The notes beneath the pieces are model-generated. The model saw only the letters and a program-made list of their open reading frames with translations. It did not search any database and had not been told where the DNA came from. Below, piece after piece: positions 3,888 to 40,949 of a stretch of DNA of 53,422 nucleotides (positions are counted from its first letter, which is position 1; every line of letters starts with the position of its first letter). Both the position numbers and the translations under genes were made by a program. Origin of the DNA: Candidatus Doudnabacteria bacterium RIFCSPHIGHO2_01_48_18. GTDB lineage: Bacteria > Patescibacteriota > Doudnabacteria > UBA920 > 2-01-FULL-46-14. The stretch spans positions 1-53,422 of the forward strand of contig MFEF01000003.1 in assembly GCA_001777515.1 (NCBI GenBank), read 5' to 3'.

Positions 3888-5417
3888 ATGAAAAAACTAC
3901 GAGTAGTGATTCTCAAGCCGAGTAAATACGGGACAGACGGCTCTGTCCAGCGGTTTCGGCGTGGTTTTATGCCGAATACGACCGTTCCCTATATTCGCAG
4001 CATGACCCCGCAAATGATCGATGATGTTGTGGTTGAAACGCAGACAATCGACGAATATGTGCAAACAGATTTGCGCTACCTCGATCTTTTGAGATCAGAT
4101 GAACCGACCTTGCTGGCTCTTGTCGGCGTCCAGTCTCATCAATTTCACCGCGCACTTGATCTGGGGGCGTATGCTCTCAAACATAAAGTGCGGCATGTCG
4201 TGATCGGCGGGCCGCATCCCATGACCTGCGACACCAGCATGCTGCACAATCGCGGCGTATCATTCGCGCTCGCGGAAGCAGAAATGATCTGGCCGGCTAT
4301 CCTCCGAGACGCGATTCGCGGCCAGCTGCAGCCAGTCTATGGAAAAGGGCAGCGCTGGCAAAAGGAATTATCACCGCTGATAATGCAGCCGCCCAGCAGC
4401 CAGGACATGAAGCGCTATGTTGTGCCTCTTCTTGGCATATACCCCGCGCGCGGTTGCCCTTATACCTGCAACTTTTGCTCGGTGATCAAAATCGCCGGGC
4501 GGCAGGTCAGAAGCGTGGACGTTGACACGATAATGGCCACTCTCTGGGCAGCAAAAAAGGCGGGAATCCAATTCGTCTTGTTTACTTCGGACAATTTCAA
4601 CAAATATGCTGATGCCCCTGCCCTTCTCAATCAAATGATCAGGGAAAAAATCGATCTGCCGTTTATGTGCCAGTGCGACACGCAGGTGTCAAAGCAGGAA
4701 GATTTCATCGAGCTGTTGGGACGCGCTGGGTGTTTTCAGATGTTTGTTGGCGTGGAATCCCTCAACCGGCAAACTCTGCTGAAGGCGCACAAAACCCAGA
4801 ATCACCCTCAGCGCTACGCCGACATTGTCCGCCTTGTGCACAAATACGGGTTCAATGGACATTTCTCCAACATCATTGGCTTTCCTGACGACACTGAACA
4901 AAGCTGCCACGAGCACATGGCGATCATCAAAGAGTTAAGTCCCGGTGCCGTATCTTGTTACATTCTCTGCCCATTGCCAGGGACGGAGCAATACGATGAT
5001 TTTCGCGCCGAAGATTTAGTCTATGAAAAAAATCTGGATCGGTTCGATGCCACTTGCCCTACCTGGAGCCATCCAAACCTTTCGCCTGAACAACTCACCA
5101 ATCTGATGTTCGAGTTCTATCGGACATTCTACTCCGATGAGCGTCTGATCAGAAGCTTCACCACTAGAAACCGCCGGATGAGCTGGCAGTCAGATTTGAT
5201 TGCCCGAATTTTTCCAGTATTCAACCGTTATTCGGTCTGGAGAGGCCTGCACCCTATGGCCGGTGGATTCTGGGATATCAAACGGGATCATGTTTCTGAA
5301 TACCTGGATGTGCGCCGGCAGTATTACGGTTACGAGCATGTCCCCTTGCCAGCCAGCCTGCGTCTGTCAGAAATTGATGAAAAAATGAACGGCAACGTAA
5401 AACTCGTGCTCGCCTAA
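3888..5417 (+). CDS. B12-binding-domain-type radical SAM protein
   Basis: ARGCPYTCNFCSV (CxxxCxxC) radical SAM motif; AAAGGAGG RBS before ATG at 3888. Confidence 0.85.
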   Translation: MKKLRVVILKPSKYGTDGSVQRFRRGFMPNTTVPYIRSMTPQMIDDVVVETQTIDEYVQTDLRYLDLLRSDEPTLLALVGVQSHQFHRALDLGAYALKHKVRHVVIGGPHPMTCDTSMLHNRGVSFALAEAEMIWPAILRDAIRGQLQPVYGKGQRWQKELSPLIMQPPSSQDMKRYVVPLLGIYPARGCPYTCNFCSVIKIAGRQVRSVDVDTIMATLWAAKKAGIQFVLFTSDNFNKYADAPALLNQMIREKIDLPFMCQCDTQVSKQEDFIELLGRAGCFQMFVGVESLNRQTLLKAHKTQNHPQRYADIVRLVHKYGFNGHFSNIIGFPDDTEQSCHEHMAIIKELSPGAVSCYILCPLPGTEQYDDFRAEDLVYEKNLDRFDATCPTWSHPNLSPEQLTNLMFEFYRTFYSDERLIRSFTTRNRRMSWQSDLIARIFPVFNRYSVWRGLHPMAGGFWDIKRDHVSEYLDVRRQYYGYEHVPLPASLRLSEIDEKMNGNVKLVLA

Positions 5418-33630: not shown

Positions 33631-34698
33631 TTAGCTAATTATCATCGACTTTATATCTTTAGGCGACTTTGATAATACCTCGTTGTCCTTATTCTTTATC
33701 AATACCATATCCTCTATCCTTACCCCGCCCCAGCCTTCAATATATATCCCCGGCTCAACCGTGACAATCATGTCGCTGAGCAAAATGTCGTCTGATTTTG
33801 GTGAAAAATTCGGCAATTCGTGTATTTCCAAGCCAACACCATGCCCGGTGTTGTGGGTAAACCCAGCACCACGAAGCTGGTGCTGGGTAAATTTGTTACG
33901 CCAATCACTCACCTCATCAATATATTGTCGTGCCGTTTTGTCCACCACCGAAGCTTTGTTCCCTAATCTCGCTTTTTCAATTCCCCGCTTCTGCGCCACC
34001 AGCACTGTGTTATAAATCTGCGCTTGTTTTTTGCTAGGTGAACCGATAAACAGGGTTCTAGTGAAATCCGAATGATATCCTTTTACCAGAACTCCGAAAT
34101 CAAGAAGTAAAAAATTGTTGCGCTTGATTTTTTGTTTTCCTGAAAGGTGATGGGGCGCAGCTGCGTTTGCCCCAAAGGCCACGATCGATTCAAAAGCCAT
34201 GCCGTCAGCGCCGTGCTGGATAGCGGTTCTCTCCAGCTGCTGCGAAATCTCGATTTCTGTCATTCCCACCCGTGCATATTTTTTTATTTGCGCAAAACAC
34301 GCGTCAACTATCCGCTGGGCTTTCTTTATGCACTGAATCTCTTTTGCTGATTTAACAGCGCGCAAATCCTCAACCACGTTTGTGGCAACTATCCATTTGG
34401 CTTTGTGGTTTTTTTTCAAACTTGCCAATTCCCGAACAGTGATCCGGTCCTCGATCCCAATGCGGCCAGCGAGTTTGAGCTCTTCAATTTTTTTCACTTT
34501 CAAATCTGACTCGCGTTTGGCCCGGATAGTATACCGGTCGTCAACATACAATTCCGCACTCTTTCTGGTGACAAACACCACGCCCATAGAACCGGTAAAA
34601 CCAGACACATATTGCCGGTTAAGCTTAGTCAATACCAAAAACGCGTCGAGCGCGTTTTGTCTGAGGTAATCCTGCAAATTTTTGATACGATTATCCAT
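33631..34698 (-). CDS. M24 family aminopeptidase (Xaa-Pro peptidase-like)
   Basis: LLDFGVLVKGYHSDFTRT, THNTGHGVGLEIHELP, VTVEPGIYI. Confidence 0.93.
   Translation of the reverse strand: MDNRIKNLQDYLRQNALDAFLVLTKLNRQYVSGFTGSMGVVFVTRKSAELYVDDRYTIRAKRESDLKVKKIEELKLAGRIGIEDRITVRELASLKKNHKAKWIVATNVVEDLRAVKSAKEIQCIKKAQRIVDACFAQIKKYARVGMTEIEISQQLERTAIQHGADGMAFESIVAFGANAAAPHHLSGKQKIKRNNFLLLDFGVLVKGYHSDFTRTLFIGSPSKKQAQIYNTVLVAQKRGIEKARLGNKASVVDKTARQYIDEVSDWRNKFTQHQLRGAGFTHNTGHGVGLEIHELPNFSPKSDDILLSDMIVTVEPGIYIEGWGGVRIEDMVLIKNKDNEVLSKSPKDIKSMIIS
33861..33888. repeat. Palindrome inside the M24 peptidase gene
   Basis: ACCCAGCACCA-cgaagc-TGGTGCTGGGT, perfect 11-bp arms. Confidence 0.7.
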
Positions 34699-34704
34699 AG
34701 ATGC

Positions 34705-34764
34705 GTCATTCCCGCGAAAGCGGGAATCCAGTTTTTCTGGATCCCCGATCCAGTCGGGGATGAC
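34705..34764. repeat. dRS3-like double-hairpin intergenic repeat
   Basis: GTCATTCCCGCGAAAGCGGGAATCCAGtttttCTGGATCCCCGATCCAGTCGGGGATGAC. Confidence 0.7.
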
Positions 34765-34766
34765 AA

Positions 34767-36113
34767 TTAGAGACTGGAAAAATTTTCTCTAAAATAGTTT
34801 ATTAGTTCGGCTATAGCGACTCGTTCTTGAGCCATTGTATCCCTGTCTCTAATCGTCACTTTTTTATCTTCCAAGGAGTCAAAATCTATTGTTACGCAAT
34901 AAGGCGTGCCAATCTCGTCTTGCCTGCGATAGCGCTTGCCGATCGAAGCAGTTTCATCATACTGTACCATCCACCGCTTTCTCAAATCGCCATAAATCTC
35001 TTGCGCTAGGCTGATCAGTTCTTCTTTTTTGGAGAGCGGCAGAACCGCGATTTTTATCGGCGCAAGCGCTTTGGGCAGGCGCAAGGTGATTTCAGTTTCA
35101 TGCACGGCCGTCTCCTTGCCGGACCTGGCTTCGGTTTCAGTATAGGCGTCAGCTAGTACAGCGAGCATGATACGATCAAGACCGAATGTCGGTTCCACTA
35201 CATAGGGGATGAATTCCTCACCGGTTTTTTCGTCTTTATATTTCAAATCGGCTCCGGATAATTCAATGTGATTTTTTAGATCATAGTCAGTGCGGTTGGC
35301 AATCCCCGCTATCTCGTCCCAGCCGAATGGAAAATTATAATATGTATCCACTGTCCGCTTGGAATAATGCGCCAGTTCTTCTGTGGGAAGCTCAACAGTT
35401 TTGAAATTTTCCTTCTTCAGTCCCAATTCCACAAAAAATTCTTGTTGGTAAGCAAGCCAGCCCTCAAACGCCTCATCGTCTTCTCCGGGTTTAACGAAAT
35501 ATTCTAGCTCTCCGATCGTGAATTCTTTCATACGAAAAATTGAGTTGCCAGTCGTAATTTCATTACGAAATGAGCGGCCGATTTGGGCGATTCCAAAAGG
35601 TAATCTCCGCCGCATACTCTCGGTTACGAGCTTAAAATCAGTAAACATCGCTTGCGCCGTTTCGCCGCGCAAATAAACCGTGGACTTGCTGTCCTCAGTG
35701 GTGCCAATAAATGTTTTAAATAATAAATTAAAATTCTTCGGTTCTGTCCATTCCGCCTTTTTACCCTTATGGGTTTCTTGGTGTGCGGCGATCTCTTTTG
35801 ATTTATCCACACGCAGCCTCATGTGGCATACTTTGCACTCAACCAAAGGATCTGTGAAGTTTTTTATGTGGCCTGAAGCTTCCCAAACCTTGGGATTCAT
35901 GATAATCGGACCTCTCATACCCACCATATCCGATCTTTTTTGAACGATTTTTTTCCACCACAAATCGCTGATGTTTCTAAACAATTCCACGCCCAGAGGT
36001 CCATAGTCGTAGCTATTTGCCAGCCCGCCATAAATCTCGCTGCCGGGAAAAATAAAACCCCGCCGCTTGCATAAATTAACGATTTTTTCCAGTGTAACTG
36101 ACATATTGTGCAT
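34767..36113 (-). CDS. glyS: Glycyl-tRNA synthetase (dimeric class II type)
   Basis: GFIFPGSEIYGGLANSYDYGPLG, RGETAQAMFTDFK, YVVEPTFGLDRIMLAVL. Confidence 0.95.
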   Translation of the reverse strand: MHNMSVTLEKIVNLCKRRGFIFPGSEIYGGLANSYDYGPLGVELFRNISDLWWKKIVQKRSDMVGMRGPIIMNPKVWEASGHIKNFTDPLVECKVCHMRLRVDKSKEIAAHQETHKGKKAEWTEPKNFNLLFKTFIGTTEDSKSTVYLRGETAQAMFTDFKLVTESMRRRLPFGIAQIGRSFRNEITTGNSIFRMKEFTIGELEYFVKPGEDDEAFEGWLAYQQEFFVELGLKKENFKTVELPTEELAHYSKRTVDTYYNFPFGWDEIAGIANRTDYDLKNHIELSGADLKYKDEKTGEEFIPYVVEPTFGLDRIMLAVLADAYTETEARSGKETAVHETEITLRLPKALAPIKIAVLPLSKKEELISLAQEIYGDLRKRWMVQYDETASIGKRYRRQDEIGTPYCVTIDFDSLEDKKVTIRDRDTMAQERVAIAELINYFRENFSSL

Positions 36114-36125
36114 AATAACAAAAAA

Positions 36126-36395
36126 TTAGCCTTCTTTCCATAAACTATGCCAATTTCCAATCTCTTGCCCTAACTCATATGCATTGCCATGGCTAGTAAA
36201 CCCCAGAAACGAATCGGCAATGAATGTCCAGTCAAAAAAAGGATAAAGTTGCCGGTAAATTGCATGATGCAATACCCTGTCTCGAACACTGGCTTTGTGA
36301 ATGTTGCGCGGCTTGGGATCAGAGATATTAAATGCCTTGTAACCGCCATGCTGATAAATGAACCCTCCCCCCAACGGAAATTTATCCACAGCCAA
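36126..36395 (-). pseudogene. DGR-type reverse transcriptase fragment
   Basis: YQHGGYKAFNISDPKPRNIHKASVRDRVLHHAIYRQLYPFFDWTFIADSF matches the N-terminal DGR/retroelement RT region; no catalytic YxDD segment follows. Confidence 0.85.
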
Positions 36396-36759
36396 TCTCC
36401 CTATTTTACAAAAAGCCAGCGATGCTTACAAACTGTGGCACAATATGCTGGTACATCTCCCTAGACTGACCAAATACTCTCTGGGAGAAAAAATCAATCT
36501 GCTCTTTACTGATGTGATAGAGCTTATTCTCACCGCCGATTTTGCCAGGGAAAGCAAAATGGCAATCATTCAAAAAGCCAGCATCAAACTCGACACTCTG
36601 AAATTCTTTCTGCAACTGGCTTGGGAACTAAAAGCCATGGATAATAAAAGATACATTGCGATTTCTTCGCCGCTAGTGGAGGTTGGAAAGATGCTAGGCG
36701 GATGGCAGAAACAACAATTCATAAAAGAAGCTCCCACCGAAGTAGGAGCAAGAAGATAA
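36358..36759 (+). CDS. avd: DGR accessory protein Avd / four-helix-bundle protein
   Basis: LPILQKASDAYKLWHNMLVHLPRLTKYSLGEKINLLFTDVIELI...IIQKASIKLDTLKFFLQLAWELKAMDNKRYIAISSPLVEVGKMLGGWQKQ. Confidence 0.88.
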   Translation: MNPPPNGNLSTANLPILQKASDAYKLWHNMLVHLPRLTKYSLGEKINLLFTDVIELILTADFARESKMAIIQKASIKLDTLKFFLQLAWELKAMDNKRYIAISSPLVEVGKMLGGWQKQQFIKEAPTEVGARR

Positions 36760-37376
36760 TAGCGGCGACGCAGGAACCGATCGTTGCGGTTGAAGTTGTT
36801 GTCAAGCCAGTTGAAGTTCAGCTTCCAGCGCTTGCCATTCCAGTTGAAGTAAGCCACGTTGCCGCTGCCATCGTCGCCATCGTCGTCCTGCAACTCGGTA
36901 AGCGGCATGATGAAGTAGTGCACACCGCGGGACTCGACAGGGAAAATCTCTTTTCCCTCGTCCTGGGCTTTGAGCAAGTCTGCGGCCAAACCGACACTGC
37001 CGATTGCATTGACTTCTTTCGCGCGCTTCATCATGGTCTCGCCGCTAACGTATTCCTCGTCATCGCGAACGGGACATGAGCTGTAATCGAGCTTGGCGAG
37101 GTCAACGTCGCCTTCGAGACGGTCACCGCCCTTTTTGACTTTCCACCCTTGCGGAATGAGTCCGGTGTCCTTTGCCGCAATCGGCGTAACTATACCGCTT
37201 GCTTTTTTGGAAAACTCAATCATAAAAGCGGCGATCTTGTCTTCGAGTTCCGTGCCTGGATACTCCAGGGCTTTCTGAAAAACTGCATCGGGAATCCCAG
37301 ACTTCTGCGCCGCAATCATCAATCGATCATGCAGCTTGTCAATTTTCTGAGCAGATGCGGTCAATGGTGTTTCCAT
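36570..37376 (-). CDS. DGR target-like protein carrying a variable-region-type C-terminal segment
   Basis: AYFNWNGKRWKLNFNWLDNNFNRNDRFLRRR Asn-rich segment typical of CPR DGR targets; last ~55 aa are antisense to avd; RBS AAGGAGG before ATG at 37376. Confidence 0.75.
   Translation of the reverse strand: METPLTASAQKIDKLHDRLMIAAQKSGIPDAVFQKALEYPGTELEDKIAAFMIEFSKKASGIVTPIAAKDTGLIPQGWKVKKGGDRLEGDVDLAKLDYSSCPVRDDEEYVSGETMMKRAKEVNAIGSVGLAADLLKAQDEGKEIFPVESRGVHYFIMPLTELQDDDGDDGSGNVAYFNWNGKRWKLNFNWLDNNFNRNDRFLRRRYYLLAPTSVGASFMNCCFCHPPSIFPTSTSGEEIAMYLLLSMAFSSQASCRKNFRVSSLMLAF
36762..36856 (-). other. Putative DGR variable region (VR)
   Basis: AAC/AAT-rich codons clustered in an otherwise conserved framework. 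Confidence 0.7.
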
Positions 37377-37530
37377 CGGCACATCCTCCTTATTGAAATA
37401 CTCAATCTCGGAATTGAGACGAGCAGTTTAACTATCAACCAAAACGCTTTGATAATCAAACTGCTAGACTCAATAACTGGCAATGTTAGCATATTTTGAC
37501 GATTTTGTCAAGAGTGTGTACAGTTACCTC

Positions 37531-37821
37531 ATGACTATTGAAGAATTAAAAAAGGCGGTGAGTCCGGTATTGCGCAGGAATTCCGTTGAATATGCGGGCG
37601 TTTTTGGCAGTGTAGCAAGAGGCGAAGCACGGCCCGAGAGTGATGTAGATATTCTCGTAAAATTTACGGGTCCAGCGACCTTTGCCGGTTATCTCCAGCT
37701 GGATGAAGATTTGCGCAAAACTCTGGGGCGGGAGGTTGATCTGGTTACCGAGGGAGGTGTAAATAAATTTTTACGTCCACAAATTGAGCGAGACCTGAAA
37801 ATAATTTATGGACAAAGATAA
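37531..37821 (+). CDS. mntA: MNT-type nucleotidyltransferase (MntA-like antitoxin)
   Basis: FGSVARGEARPESDVDILV nucleotidyltransferase motif; overlaps the HEPN gene. Confidence 0.9.
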   Translation: MTIEELKKAVSPVLRRNSVEYAGVFGSVARGEARPESDVDILVKFTGPATFAGYLQLDEDLRKTLGREVDLVTEGGVNKFLRPQIERDLKIIYGQR

Positions 37822-38125
37822 AATATATCTTGAGGAGATAAAGGAATTTTGTGGGAAGATTATTGCGTTCACAAAAAATTCCAGCTTTGATGATTTTGCG
37901 GCTGACGAGAAGCTGCAGCTGTCAGTTATAAAATTAATTGAAAATGTAGGCGAAGCTTCAAAACGGTTGGCAGATGATGCGCGGAGTCAGTATCCCAAGG
38001 TAGACTGGAAAAAAGCCATGGCAATGCGCGATCGCTTGGTGCACGATTATATGGACACTGATTTGGCGATTGTTTTTGATGTGGCCAAAAACGAAATACC
38101 GAAGCTATTGAAAGCACTGGGATAG
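37808..38125 (+). CDS. hepT: HEPN-domain toxin (HepT-like, DUF86)
   Basis: RDRLVHDYMD (Rx4HxY) motif; adjacent MNT gene. Confidence 0.9.
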   Translation: MDKDKIYLEEIKEFCGKIIAFTKNSSFDDFAADEKLQLSVIKLIENVGEASKRLADDARSQYPKVDWKKAMAMRDRLVHDYMDTDLAIVFDVAKNEIPKLLKALG

Positions 38126-38127
38126 GA

Positions 38128-39309
38128 ATGGATTTCTTCCAAATCCTCAAAAACGACATCAACTCAAAGGCCCGGCTTGGGATAATCAATACTGCTCACG
38201 GCCCGGTAAAAACTCCGGCATTTTTGCCGATTGGCACGAGGGGCAGCGTCAAAGCCGTAACCTCGGAGGAGCTGCGGTTTTGGGGCGCGGAAATGATTTT
38301 GGCTAACACCTATCATCTGTGGATGCGGCCGGGAGACGCGCTGATTAACAAGGCCGGCGGCCTGCATAAATTCATGGGCTGGGACGGCCCGATTTTTACT
38401 GATTCCGGTGGGTACCAGGTGTATTCGCTTGGAGAAAAAATTACCGAAAGCACTAGCGAGCGCAAACCAACCCTCAAAAAGATTACTGAAAAAGGCGTGG
38501 AGTTTAGAAATGAGCTTGATGGTGCGCTTCATGTCCTCAGCCCTGAGGAATCGATTCAGATCCAATCCAACCTGGGATCTGATATCGCGGTCGTGCTTGA
38601 TGATGTACCAGGCCTGCCTGCTACCAAGACGCGACTCGAGAGCTCGCTCGAGCTGACGTTGAAATGGGCGGAAAGAGCAAAAAAACAGTTTGAAAAGATT
38701 ACGCCTGAAAGCGTCAATCCCGGTCAAAAACTTTTTGGCGTAGTACAGGGCGGCGACCGCGAATATCTGCGAAAAAAATCCGTCCGGGCCTTGCAAAAAA
38801 TCGGTTTTGATGGCTATGGTATCGGAGGGCTGGCGATTGGTGCGGTGGCAGACGACCCGGAGATCATGTACCGTGTGATCGATTTTACTGTTCCTTATCT
38901 GGAGGATGATAAACCTCGGCATTTGCTGGGCGTCGGCTACCCGGAACAAATCATCAAATCTATCGCCCTTGGCATGGATACGTTTGACTGCGTGATCCCG
39001 ACCCGGAATGCCAGGCACGGCGAGCTGTTTATCAATCAAAAAAACGGCAATGGTGCCGGTTACGCTGCTCTGAAAATTTTAAACAAACAATATGCCGAGG
39101 ATTTCACGCCGATTGACAACACCTGTTCCTGCTACGGCTGCCGCCATCATAACCGCGCTTATCTGCGTCATCTGTTTATGAGCGGCGAACCACTTGGCAT
39201 TCGCCTCGCGACTATGCACAACCTAAGATTTTATTTGGATTTTATGGAAAAGGTCCGAAGATCAATAGAGTTTGAAAGCTTTTCCGAGTTGCTCGCGCTT
39301 TATCAGTAA
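38128..39309 (+). CDS. tgt: Queuine tRNA-ribosyltransferase
   Basis: ANTYHLWMRPGDALI, FTDSGGYQVYSLG, GGLAIGAV, CSCYGCRHHNRAYLRHLF. Confidence 0.97.
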   Translation: MDFFQILKNDINSKARLGIINTAHGPVKTPAFLPIGTRGSVKAVTSEELRFWGAEMILANTYHLWMRPGDALINKAGGLHKFMGWDGPIFTDSGGYQVYSLGEKITESTSERKPTLKKITEKGVEFRNELDGALHVLSPEESIQIQSNLGSDIAVVLDDVPGLPATKTRLESSLELTLKWAERAKKQFEKITPESVNPGQKLFGVVQGGDREYLRKKSVRALQKIGFDGYGIGGLAIGAVADDPEIMYRVIDFTVPYLEDDKPRHLLGVGYPEQIIKSIALGMDTFDCVIPTRNARHGELFINQKNGNGAGYAALKILNKQYAEDFTPIDNTCSCYGCRHHNRAYLRHLFMSGEPLGIRLATMHNLRFYLDFMEKVRRSIEFESFSELLALYQ

Positions 39310-39337
39310 TTAACCCCCTCCAGCTTAACGGTTACAA

Positions 39338-39718
39338 CTAGGTTGGCAAATAAACGGAAATTTTCTCGAGTATTTCCTGGGGCTGATGATAAGTTTTGAC
39401 CAGATAATCCTCTGCGCCCAGCAGTAGTGCGAGTTTTTTGTCATCATCCACATGCTTGCTGCCAAGGTTTGTCAAAACTATGACGGGAATATTTTTTGTG
39501 TCTTGATCCTTTTTGAAAGCCTTGAGCAGCTCAAAACCATTCATGCTGGGCAGTAGAATATCCAGCAATATTAGATCGGGCTTTTTCTTGGCGAGCTCCT
39601 GGCCTTCTTTGCCGTCATGCGCGATTTCGACATCAAATTTCGCGGACAAAACCTCGTCATACAGTTCAGCTAAATCCTGATCGTCTTCTATTAGCAATAT
39701 TTTTTTTCTTTTTGTCAT
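39338..39718 (-). CDS. Response regulator receiver protein
   Basis: ILLIEDDQDLAELY, DLILLDILLPSMNGFELL, VIVLTNL, DYLVKTYH. Confidence 0.95.
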   Translation of the reverse strand: MTKRKKILLIEDDQDLAELYDEVLSAKFDVEIAHDGKEGQELAKKKPDLILLDILLPSMNGFELLKAFKKDQDTKNIPVIVLTNLGSKHVDDDKKLALLLGAEDYLVKTYHQPQEILEKISVYLPT

Positions 39719-39731
39719 TTCTTTGGGATCC

Positions 39732-40949
39732 TTAGATTAAAGGTAACTGTTTAGATTCTTCCAGCAATTGTAAGGTGAAACAAAATCGGCTGCCAATCCC
39801 CAACTCAGAATCTACCCAGATGCGGCCTTTTTGCATTTCCACCAACTGCTTGACAATATAAAGTCCCAGGCCAGTGCCTCCAGCTTTTATGGAGAGCGCA
39901 TTGGGAACGCGGAAAAATTTTTCAAAGATGCTTTGATGATAGTCTTTGGCAATGCCCACGCCATTGTCTTGCACGCAAATAGTTGCTATCGGGCCGCTTT
40001 CCGTTATTGATTTTTTACAGCTTATTTTTATTACAGCGCCTGATTCAGTGTATTTGAGAGCGTTTCCCACGAGATTCGAAATGATCTTTTTCGTGTGATC
40101 TGGGTTGCCGCTTAACAGATAATCCTCGTGCATTTCCACAAACAGAGTTTTGTTGTCGTTCTTTGCTTTGATCCGCCATTCGTTCACGACTTCGTCAATG
40201 ATGGGGCTGATTTCAAAGGGCAAAAATTCCATTTTCGGCCGGTGTTCTAGCTTAATAACACTCAGTAAATCCTCTACCACATCGTGTAATTTTTTCGCCG
40301 CTCTGACGAGTTTTTCGACATATGTCTGCTCTTTGCCCAAAACTCCGTGATGCTCTTTTTCAAGCAGCGTCAGATATCCCTGCAGTGCCGTTAGCGGCGT
40401 CCGCAGCTCGTGAGCAGCCGACGAAATGAAATCCTCTTTTGTTTTTTCCAGCTGTTTTCGCTCCGTAATATCCTCTACAGTGCCTTCATAACAAATAATA
40501 TCCCCGTCCTCGTCTTTTACAGCCCGCGCGTTTTCGCGAATGTAGATTATCGAGCCGTTTTTGCGCCGCCACGCAGCTTCTGAAGCTTTTACCTCGCCTT
40601 GCATCTCTACCAGCTCTTTGAAGCGTGAACGCGGGGATTGTGGATCAAACCCTTCGGCCTCAAGGTTTCTGGTGCGCAGCTCTTCCAAGGAATCGTAACC
40701 GAGCATTTTGATCAACTGCGGATTGCAAAGCAAAATGCGGCCATCAGGCGTCGTACGGTAAATACCCATCGGACTGTTCTCAAAAAAGTATTTATACCGT
40801 TCTTCACTCTGTCTTAAGGCGGACGCGATGGCTTTGGCATGGTCGTGCTCGCTTTCCATCTGTACAACCCGATTCTGCAGGGACTCAATTTTCTGCCTCG
40901 CAATTGCCAGTTCCTCGTCTAAATCATGTTTTAATGCGATTTTTTCCAT
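39732..40949 (-). CDS. PAS-domain sensor histidine kinase
   Basis: PAS segment; SSAAHELRTPLTALQGYL H-box; NLVGNALKYT; GTGLGLYIVKQLVE. Confidence 0.95.
   Translation of the reverse strand: MEKIALKHDLDEELAIARQKIESLQNRVVQMESEHDHAKAIASALRQSEERYKYFFENSPMGIYRTTPDGRILLCNPQLIKMLGYDSLEELRTRNLEAEGFDPQSPRSRFKELVEMQGEVKASEAAWRRKNGSIIYIRENARAVKDEDGDIICYEGTVEDITERKQLEKTKEDFISSAAHELRTPLTALQGYLTLLEKEHHGVLGKEQTYVEKLVRAAKKLHDVVEDLLSVIKLEHRPKMEFLPFEISPIIDEVVNEWRIKAKNDNKTLFVEMHEDYLLSGNPDHTKKIISNLVGNALKYTESGAVIKISCKKSITESGPIATICVQDNGVGIAKDYHQSIFEKFFRVPNALSIKAGGTGLGLYIVKQLVEMQKGRIWVDSELGIGSRFCFTLQLLEESKQLPLI

Follow-up and report, generated by a model that had tools for sequence, protein, structure and literature searches.

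What kind of element is represented by a target-like ORF, a bAvd gene and a reverse transcriptase (RT) remnant that lie together within 1.3 kb, between glyS and an MNT/HepT pair, in a CPR/Patescibacteria genome, and can its target still be diversified? A preliminary description had recognized them as three parts of a rearranged and decayed diversity-generating retroelement (DGR) without a nearby template repeat (TR), in which the variable gene was either frozen or dependent on an RT in trans. We analyzed the whole stretch of 53,422 nucleotides (the window), which is located on contig C3; the genome assembly, a MAG-like draft, comprises 919 kb in 33 contigs. The locus is very probably a decayed cellular CPR DGR, in which the RT was lost and the VR and TR were merged by deletion, leaving a target that is fused to the TR and is no longer diversifiable. 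The features of the locus are as follows.

34767–36113, (-): glycyl-tRNA synthetase gene (glyS), flank and synteny anchor
36126–36395, (-): RT remnant; start, catalytic core and YxDD absent
36358–36759, (+): avd (bAvd, 133 aa), reading frame intact; PF22296
36363–36372, (+): CCCTCCCCCC, interrupted relic of a C-run at the avd 5' end, by comparison with relatives (run there mostly 8–13 long)
36570–37382, (-): hybrid target ORF with the Asn-rich segment quoted in the preliminary description; listed length 270 aa, from GTG 37382
36722–36764, (-): TR 3' flank with terminator-like hairpin (stem 36749–36730); flank match to the L016 TR
36765–36893, (-): single VR/TR-derived repeat; 3' part TR-type, Asn codons AAC/AAT unmutated
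37483–38125, (+): MNT/HepT-type nucleotidyltransferase-HEPN pair, flank and synteny anchor; same order in G002

Locus architecture and an intact relative

A search with the target in genomes of the same taxonomic order revealed an intact DGR (L016, contig C24 of genome G031, JAMDAY010000033.1; the identical contig also appears as L034), whose target family, avd and RT agree with those of the window and are arranged and oriented alike. The VR and TR of L016 each span 129 nt, with 20 differences, all at TR adenines, and its RT consists of 344 residues and contains GLPLGNLTSQ and YADD. The wider survey comprised 157 non-redundant loci, drawn from 80 that an avd profile retrieved from GTDB genomes, 80 from the phylum, the genome of the window itself and two relatives. 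The standard CPR layout, target(-)/VR – TR(-) – avd(+) – RT(-), is found in almost all of ~150 loci; an RT divergent from avd and a TR just past the avd 3' end are nearly universal. An exception is C18 of the window genome, where avd is codirectional with the target and the RT is reversed. The TR lies 7–168 nt and the VR 398–1459 nt past the avd core (140 loci).

The gene order of the window locus is typical of CPR DGRs, which marks it as a DGR by descent. The recognition of three DGR parts within 1.3 kb is upheld by the ORF, the bAvd profile match and the RT homology to L016. The locus is not rearranged as had been supposed, because an avd antisense to the target and RT is the usual CPR arrangement. 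In the relative G002, the order of glyS, the MNT/HepT pair and tgt matches that of the window; the gap between glyS and the pair is only ~210 bp and contains no DGR part. Therefore, the cassette is present in the window lineage and absent from the matching site of G002.

The RT remnant and avd

The RT remnant is composed of two segments of the L016 RT. Positions 36368–36207 correspond to residues 62–115, with 80% identity to this intact DGR RT (tblastn, 4e-27), and the 25 residues that follow (36212–36138) match the C-terminus (residues 315–339). The remnant lacks ~60–61 N-terminal codons, including the start, and ~199 internal residues (116–314) with all catalytic motifs, while the C-terminus and stop are retained. 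The preliminary description of ~50 aa of RT was accurate as to the absence of the N-terminus and catalytic motifs but gave too short a length, since the genuine C-terminus has survived too and the catalytic motifs were lost through an internal deletion. The window RT has neither DGR motif 4 (SQ) nor YxDD; both motifs are present in L016. The codon-position differences of the N part from L016 (7/6/28) indicate that the surviving segment was long under protein-level selection.

HMM searches, which had been proposed as a check on both genes, assigned Avd (PF22296). They gave no match for the RT remnant in Pfam or NCBIfam, yet the remnant was recognized by tblastn and by a profile of CPR DGR RTs (1e-22). 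The avd gene call proved correct: the product matches Pfam bAvd above the cut-off (E=6.6e-14) and NCBIfam NF033474 DivGenRetAVD (1.6e-21) with 76.6 bits, slightly below the cut-off of 80. Its codon-position differences from the L016 avd (26/24/69) indicate purifying selection.

A single repeat derived from the VR and TR

The target ORF has a better start at ATG 37376, after AGGAGG, and a promoter-like TTGACA-17-TAACAT is located upstream (37511–37483). It has no match in Pfam or NCBIfam, but it is homologous to the L016 target and, in its C-terminal repeat, to the TR/VR of L016; the two targets are 53% identical. The N-terminal ~165 aa are native. The final ~63 aa are encoded by the sequence 3' of the TR and by avd in antisense, and the native stop is gone: target homologues end ~0–8 aa past the repeat, and the window ORF continues for ~63 codons.

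The repeat itself is of the TR type. Its AAY codon fraction is 0.209, compared with a mean of 0.221 in TRs (n=69) and a maximum of 0.132 in VRs (n=69), and it matches the TRs of L035 and L036 residue by residue. The sequence 3' of it, CGCTATTATCTTCTTGCTCC followed by a GC hairpin and a T-run, resembles the TR flank of L016 (CGCTACTATCTTCTTACTCC) and is unlike the L016 VR flank (CGCGAGAAGAAGCCCTCGGTCGCTTAG). The folding energy of this region is −14.3 kcal/mol (z −3.6), and a terminator scan also points there. The hairpin was considered as a VR-side DGR hairpin and rejected, since it follows the TR in L016 and is terminator-like. The repeat also sits at the place of a TR, beside the avd 3' end and at a TR-like distance.

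No TR/VR pair was detected in 34001–40000. A genome-wide search for a matching TR, as had been suggested, found none elsewhere in the 919-kb assembly. Hence this target has, in the window and in the genome, no pair of distinct TR and VR with differences at TR adenines; such pairs are present in L016 and at C11, C18 and C24 of the window genome. The preliminary description correctly noted that there is no separate TR nearby, but it overlooked that the TR survives as the Asn-rich segment, merged with the VR. A TR elsewhere serving the window target was rejected, and dependence on an RT in trans was not borne out, because such an RT would have no template. The view of the locus as decayed is supported by the missing RT core and start and by the lack of a separate TR; with neither RT nor separate template, it is unable to diversify alone and holds a frozen variable gene.

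Retrohoming was rejected as an origin of the TR-type repeat, because the 3' flank of the TR came along and retrohoming would keep that of the VR. The single repeat, the TR flank, the TR position, the TR-type codons and the read-through past the stop point to VR x TR recombination or annealing with deletion of the spacer. Any crossover would lie toward the 5' end of the repeat, at about 36850–36893; the position of the crossover and the ends of the deletions are estimated from relatives only ~70–80% identical.

Proposed history of the locus

The architecture, the missing parts, the TR-type content and flank of the repeat and the lack of any other TR are observed directly; the recombination mechanism, the order of events and the effect on expression are what we infer. 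A cassette of target/VR, TR, reversed avd and RT would have been seated between glyS and the MNT/HepT pair. Its RT would have lost the first ~61 codons and ~199 internal codons, and this loss probably came first. Homologous recombination between the VR and TR (or single-strand annealing) may have deleted the ~0.4-kb spacer together with the target stop, and the 5' part of the target would then have been joined to the TR along with the flank 3' of it. The hybrid gene could give rise to a protein with a foreign tail, or to a stop-less mRNA, since the terminator hairpin is now inside the ORF.

Recurrence of the merger and alternative explanations

Three further loci carry a single repeat fused to the target at the place of the TR. 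In L167, the repeat is Asn-rich, the ORF reads into avd and no RT was found. In L180, the 5' half of the repeat is VR-like and the 3' half TR-like, and the RT frame is broken at (GA)16. In L226, the repeat is VR-like, the ORF reads into avd and the RT lacks its N-terminus. The crossover thus lies at different places in the collapsed loci, as predicted by recombination. L075, L182, L190 and L230 were rejected as collapses because the RT is intact and no VR is near avd (a TR was seen in L075 and L190). L112 is ambiguous, because its one VR-like repeat has its own stop and a VR-like flank, and plain TR loss is equally likely. In this DGR (L112 4420–5112), the lone repeat is at the TR position, and the RT carries a deletion of 36 aa flanked by LHH repeats.

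Assemblers are known to be prone to error at short diverged repeats, and the window genome is a MAG-like draft; an assembler could have collapsed the VR and TR, as near-identical repeats of 130 bp, and mis-joined the RT. However, such an artefact should affect RT-intact loci equally. The collapses, four in all and judged by eye after the repeat scan gave no pair, occur in 4/26 loci with a non-intact RT and in 0/112 with an intact RT (Fisher p=0.001); this speaks against an artefact. Furthermore, neither of the two RT deletions is bounded by VR/TR-like repeats, and the joined parts stay in frame. We consequently regard an assembly artefact as unlikely. If the Asn-rich gene were an ordinary one outside any DGR, and its four-helix-bundle (23S IVP-like) neighbour were unrelated to it, this would agree with the lack of Pfam and NCBIfam matches for the target and RT remnant; it is hardly conceivable, given that L016, a close homologue, combines this target with avd and RT in a complete DGR.

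The window genome contains four DGR loci: that of the window, C18 (L004), C11 (L005) and C24 (L031). The RT of C18 is intact, and it is the only intact RT in the genome. That of C11 is frame-broken at a (GA)9 run, and C24 has a perfect A-only VR/TR pair, but its RT lacks the first two thirds. The element could be silenced but maintained, if the C18 RT used the fused repeat as a template in trans and re-mutated it in place; the window avd is open, and the sequence from the TR downstream to avd is retained. The preliminary description had advised a search for an intact RT elsewhere. One does exist, but the C18 RT and TR are unrelated to the window repeat. DGR cDNA synthesis uses cognate RNA downstream of the TR (PMC12875486, BPP-1), and the adenine codons of TR type have stayed unmutated, whereas re-mutation would produce the reverse. 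Maintenance in trans is thus very improbable, and the merger of VR and TR in a decayed DGR is preferred.

A ~100-bp hairpin repeat is dispersed in the window genome (L004 270–350 and 7367–7460; L031 4850–4955 and 8572); one copy is located exactly at the C24 RT break, and the repeat also occurs near C18. A (GA)9 run lies upstream of the C18 target (L004 ~236–255), beside the hairpin repeat.

Solitary homologues of the window target (L017, L018, L019, L020 and L022; in G003, G039 (two), G045 and G048) have diversified C-termini. No TR, avd or RT was found near them, and no TR of that family was found in their genomes. Therefore, frozen targets seem to persist.

Simple-sequence runs and putative phase variation

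A simple-sequence run is located between the avd start codon and the avd core in 104/157 CPR DGR loci (e.g. L034 ~4000–4020); the surveyed relatives include L034–L113 and L166–L245. These runs are mostly C8–C13, and CA, GA, CT, CAAT and AGGAC units occur at the same place. The avd start ATG is antisense to RT codon ~7. Run density in the avd–RT gap is 65 per 10 kb, compared with 0.16–0.20 in the flanks, and no runs were found inside avd or on the TR side. The ATG is in frame with avd in 28/92 run-bearing loci but in 34/39 loci without an avd run (p=2e-9); the latter fraction counters the explanation that a random ATG would be in frame by chance in one third of cases. The window avd is in frame, and no uninterrupted run is present in it, only CCCTCCCCCC.

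A second kind of run, (GA)8–19, occupies one RT site (hmm position ~186–200, in the motif 3–4 loop) in 15/151 RT-bearing loci: L065, L113, L177, L180, L196, L197, L199, L203, L209, L210, L220, L221, L224, L240 and, in the window's own genome, L005 (C11, ~3981–4006). The RT is a single ORF in 4/15 of them and frame-broken in 11/15. By the listings, none of these loci also carries an avd run. Several RT-loop runs are preceded by a CGATTTTCG..CGAAAATCG-like hairpin. Among viral DGRs, a run was found in 0/48 with codirectional avd and RT and in 3/13 divergent ones of the same collection. In 18 genomes (16 with matches), selected mostly for having a run in their DGR, (GA)8 occurs at ~25 places, of which ~20 are at DGR loci by eye.

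Both Avd and RT are needed for retrohoming in the reconstituted BPP-1 DGR (PMC12875486); therefore, frame switching of either should switch hypermutation. The CPR DGR relatives show two features of contingency loci, a run near the start of or inside an ORF and a frame randomised by run length, as compared across species with one genome per species. On this comparative basis, it is likely that CPR DGR hypermutation is phase-variable, with slippage at the avd start or in the RT loop acting as a reversible on/off switch. Loci stuck in the off state would decay, and one recurrent end would be the VR x TR collapse with a frozen target. If true, such a switch on a hypermutation machine would explain how very small genomes keep the cost of continuous hypermutation in check. 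No phase-variable switch on a DGR is described in the titles and abstracts of the open-licence literature searched.

Comparison with known systems

By its parts and layout, the locus is likened to the cellular CPR/Patescibacteria DGRs (DGR clade 2, Roux et al. 2021, PMC8144416). It shares with them a target without a known domain, a bAvd, relatives with A-specific TR/VR, an RT with GLPLGNLTSQ and YADD in L016, and a layout as in ~150 relatives. Unlike them, the window contains a single merged repeat and lacks the RT core.

Phase-variable contingency genes of Neisseria, Campylobacter and Haemophilus carry C/G or dinucleotide runs (PMC8437040, PMC5084427). The CPR relatives carry like runs and are in frame in about one third of cases; the run of the window itself differs in being interrupted.

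Inactivated DGRs with a damaged RT and intact, separate VR and TR are reported in the DiGReF survey (PMC3521204), and the window is similar to them in that the RT was lost by mutation. In contrast to those DGRs, the VR and TR of the window are merged and the target stop is lost; a VR/TR merger is not described in the survey passages searched. The window thus adds a form of DGR decay, with a well-supported anatomy and an inferred mechanism. The VR/TR fusion is a further, structurally definable decay step, which is seen only with a non-intact RT and freezes a hypervariable gene for good.
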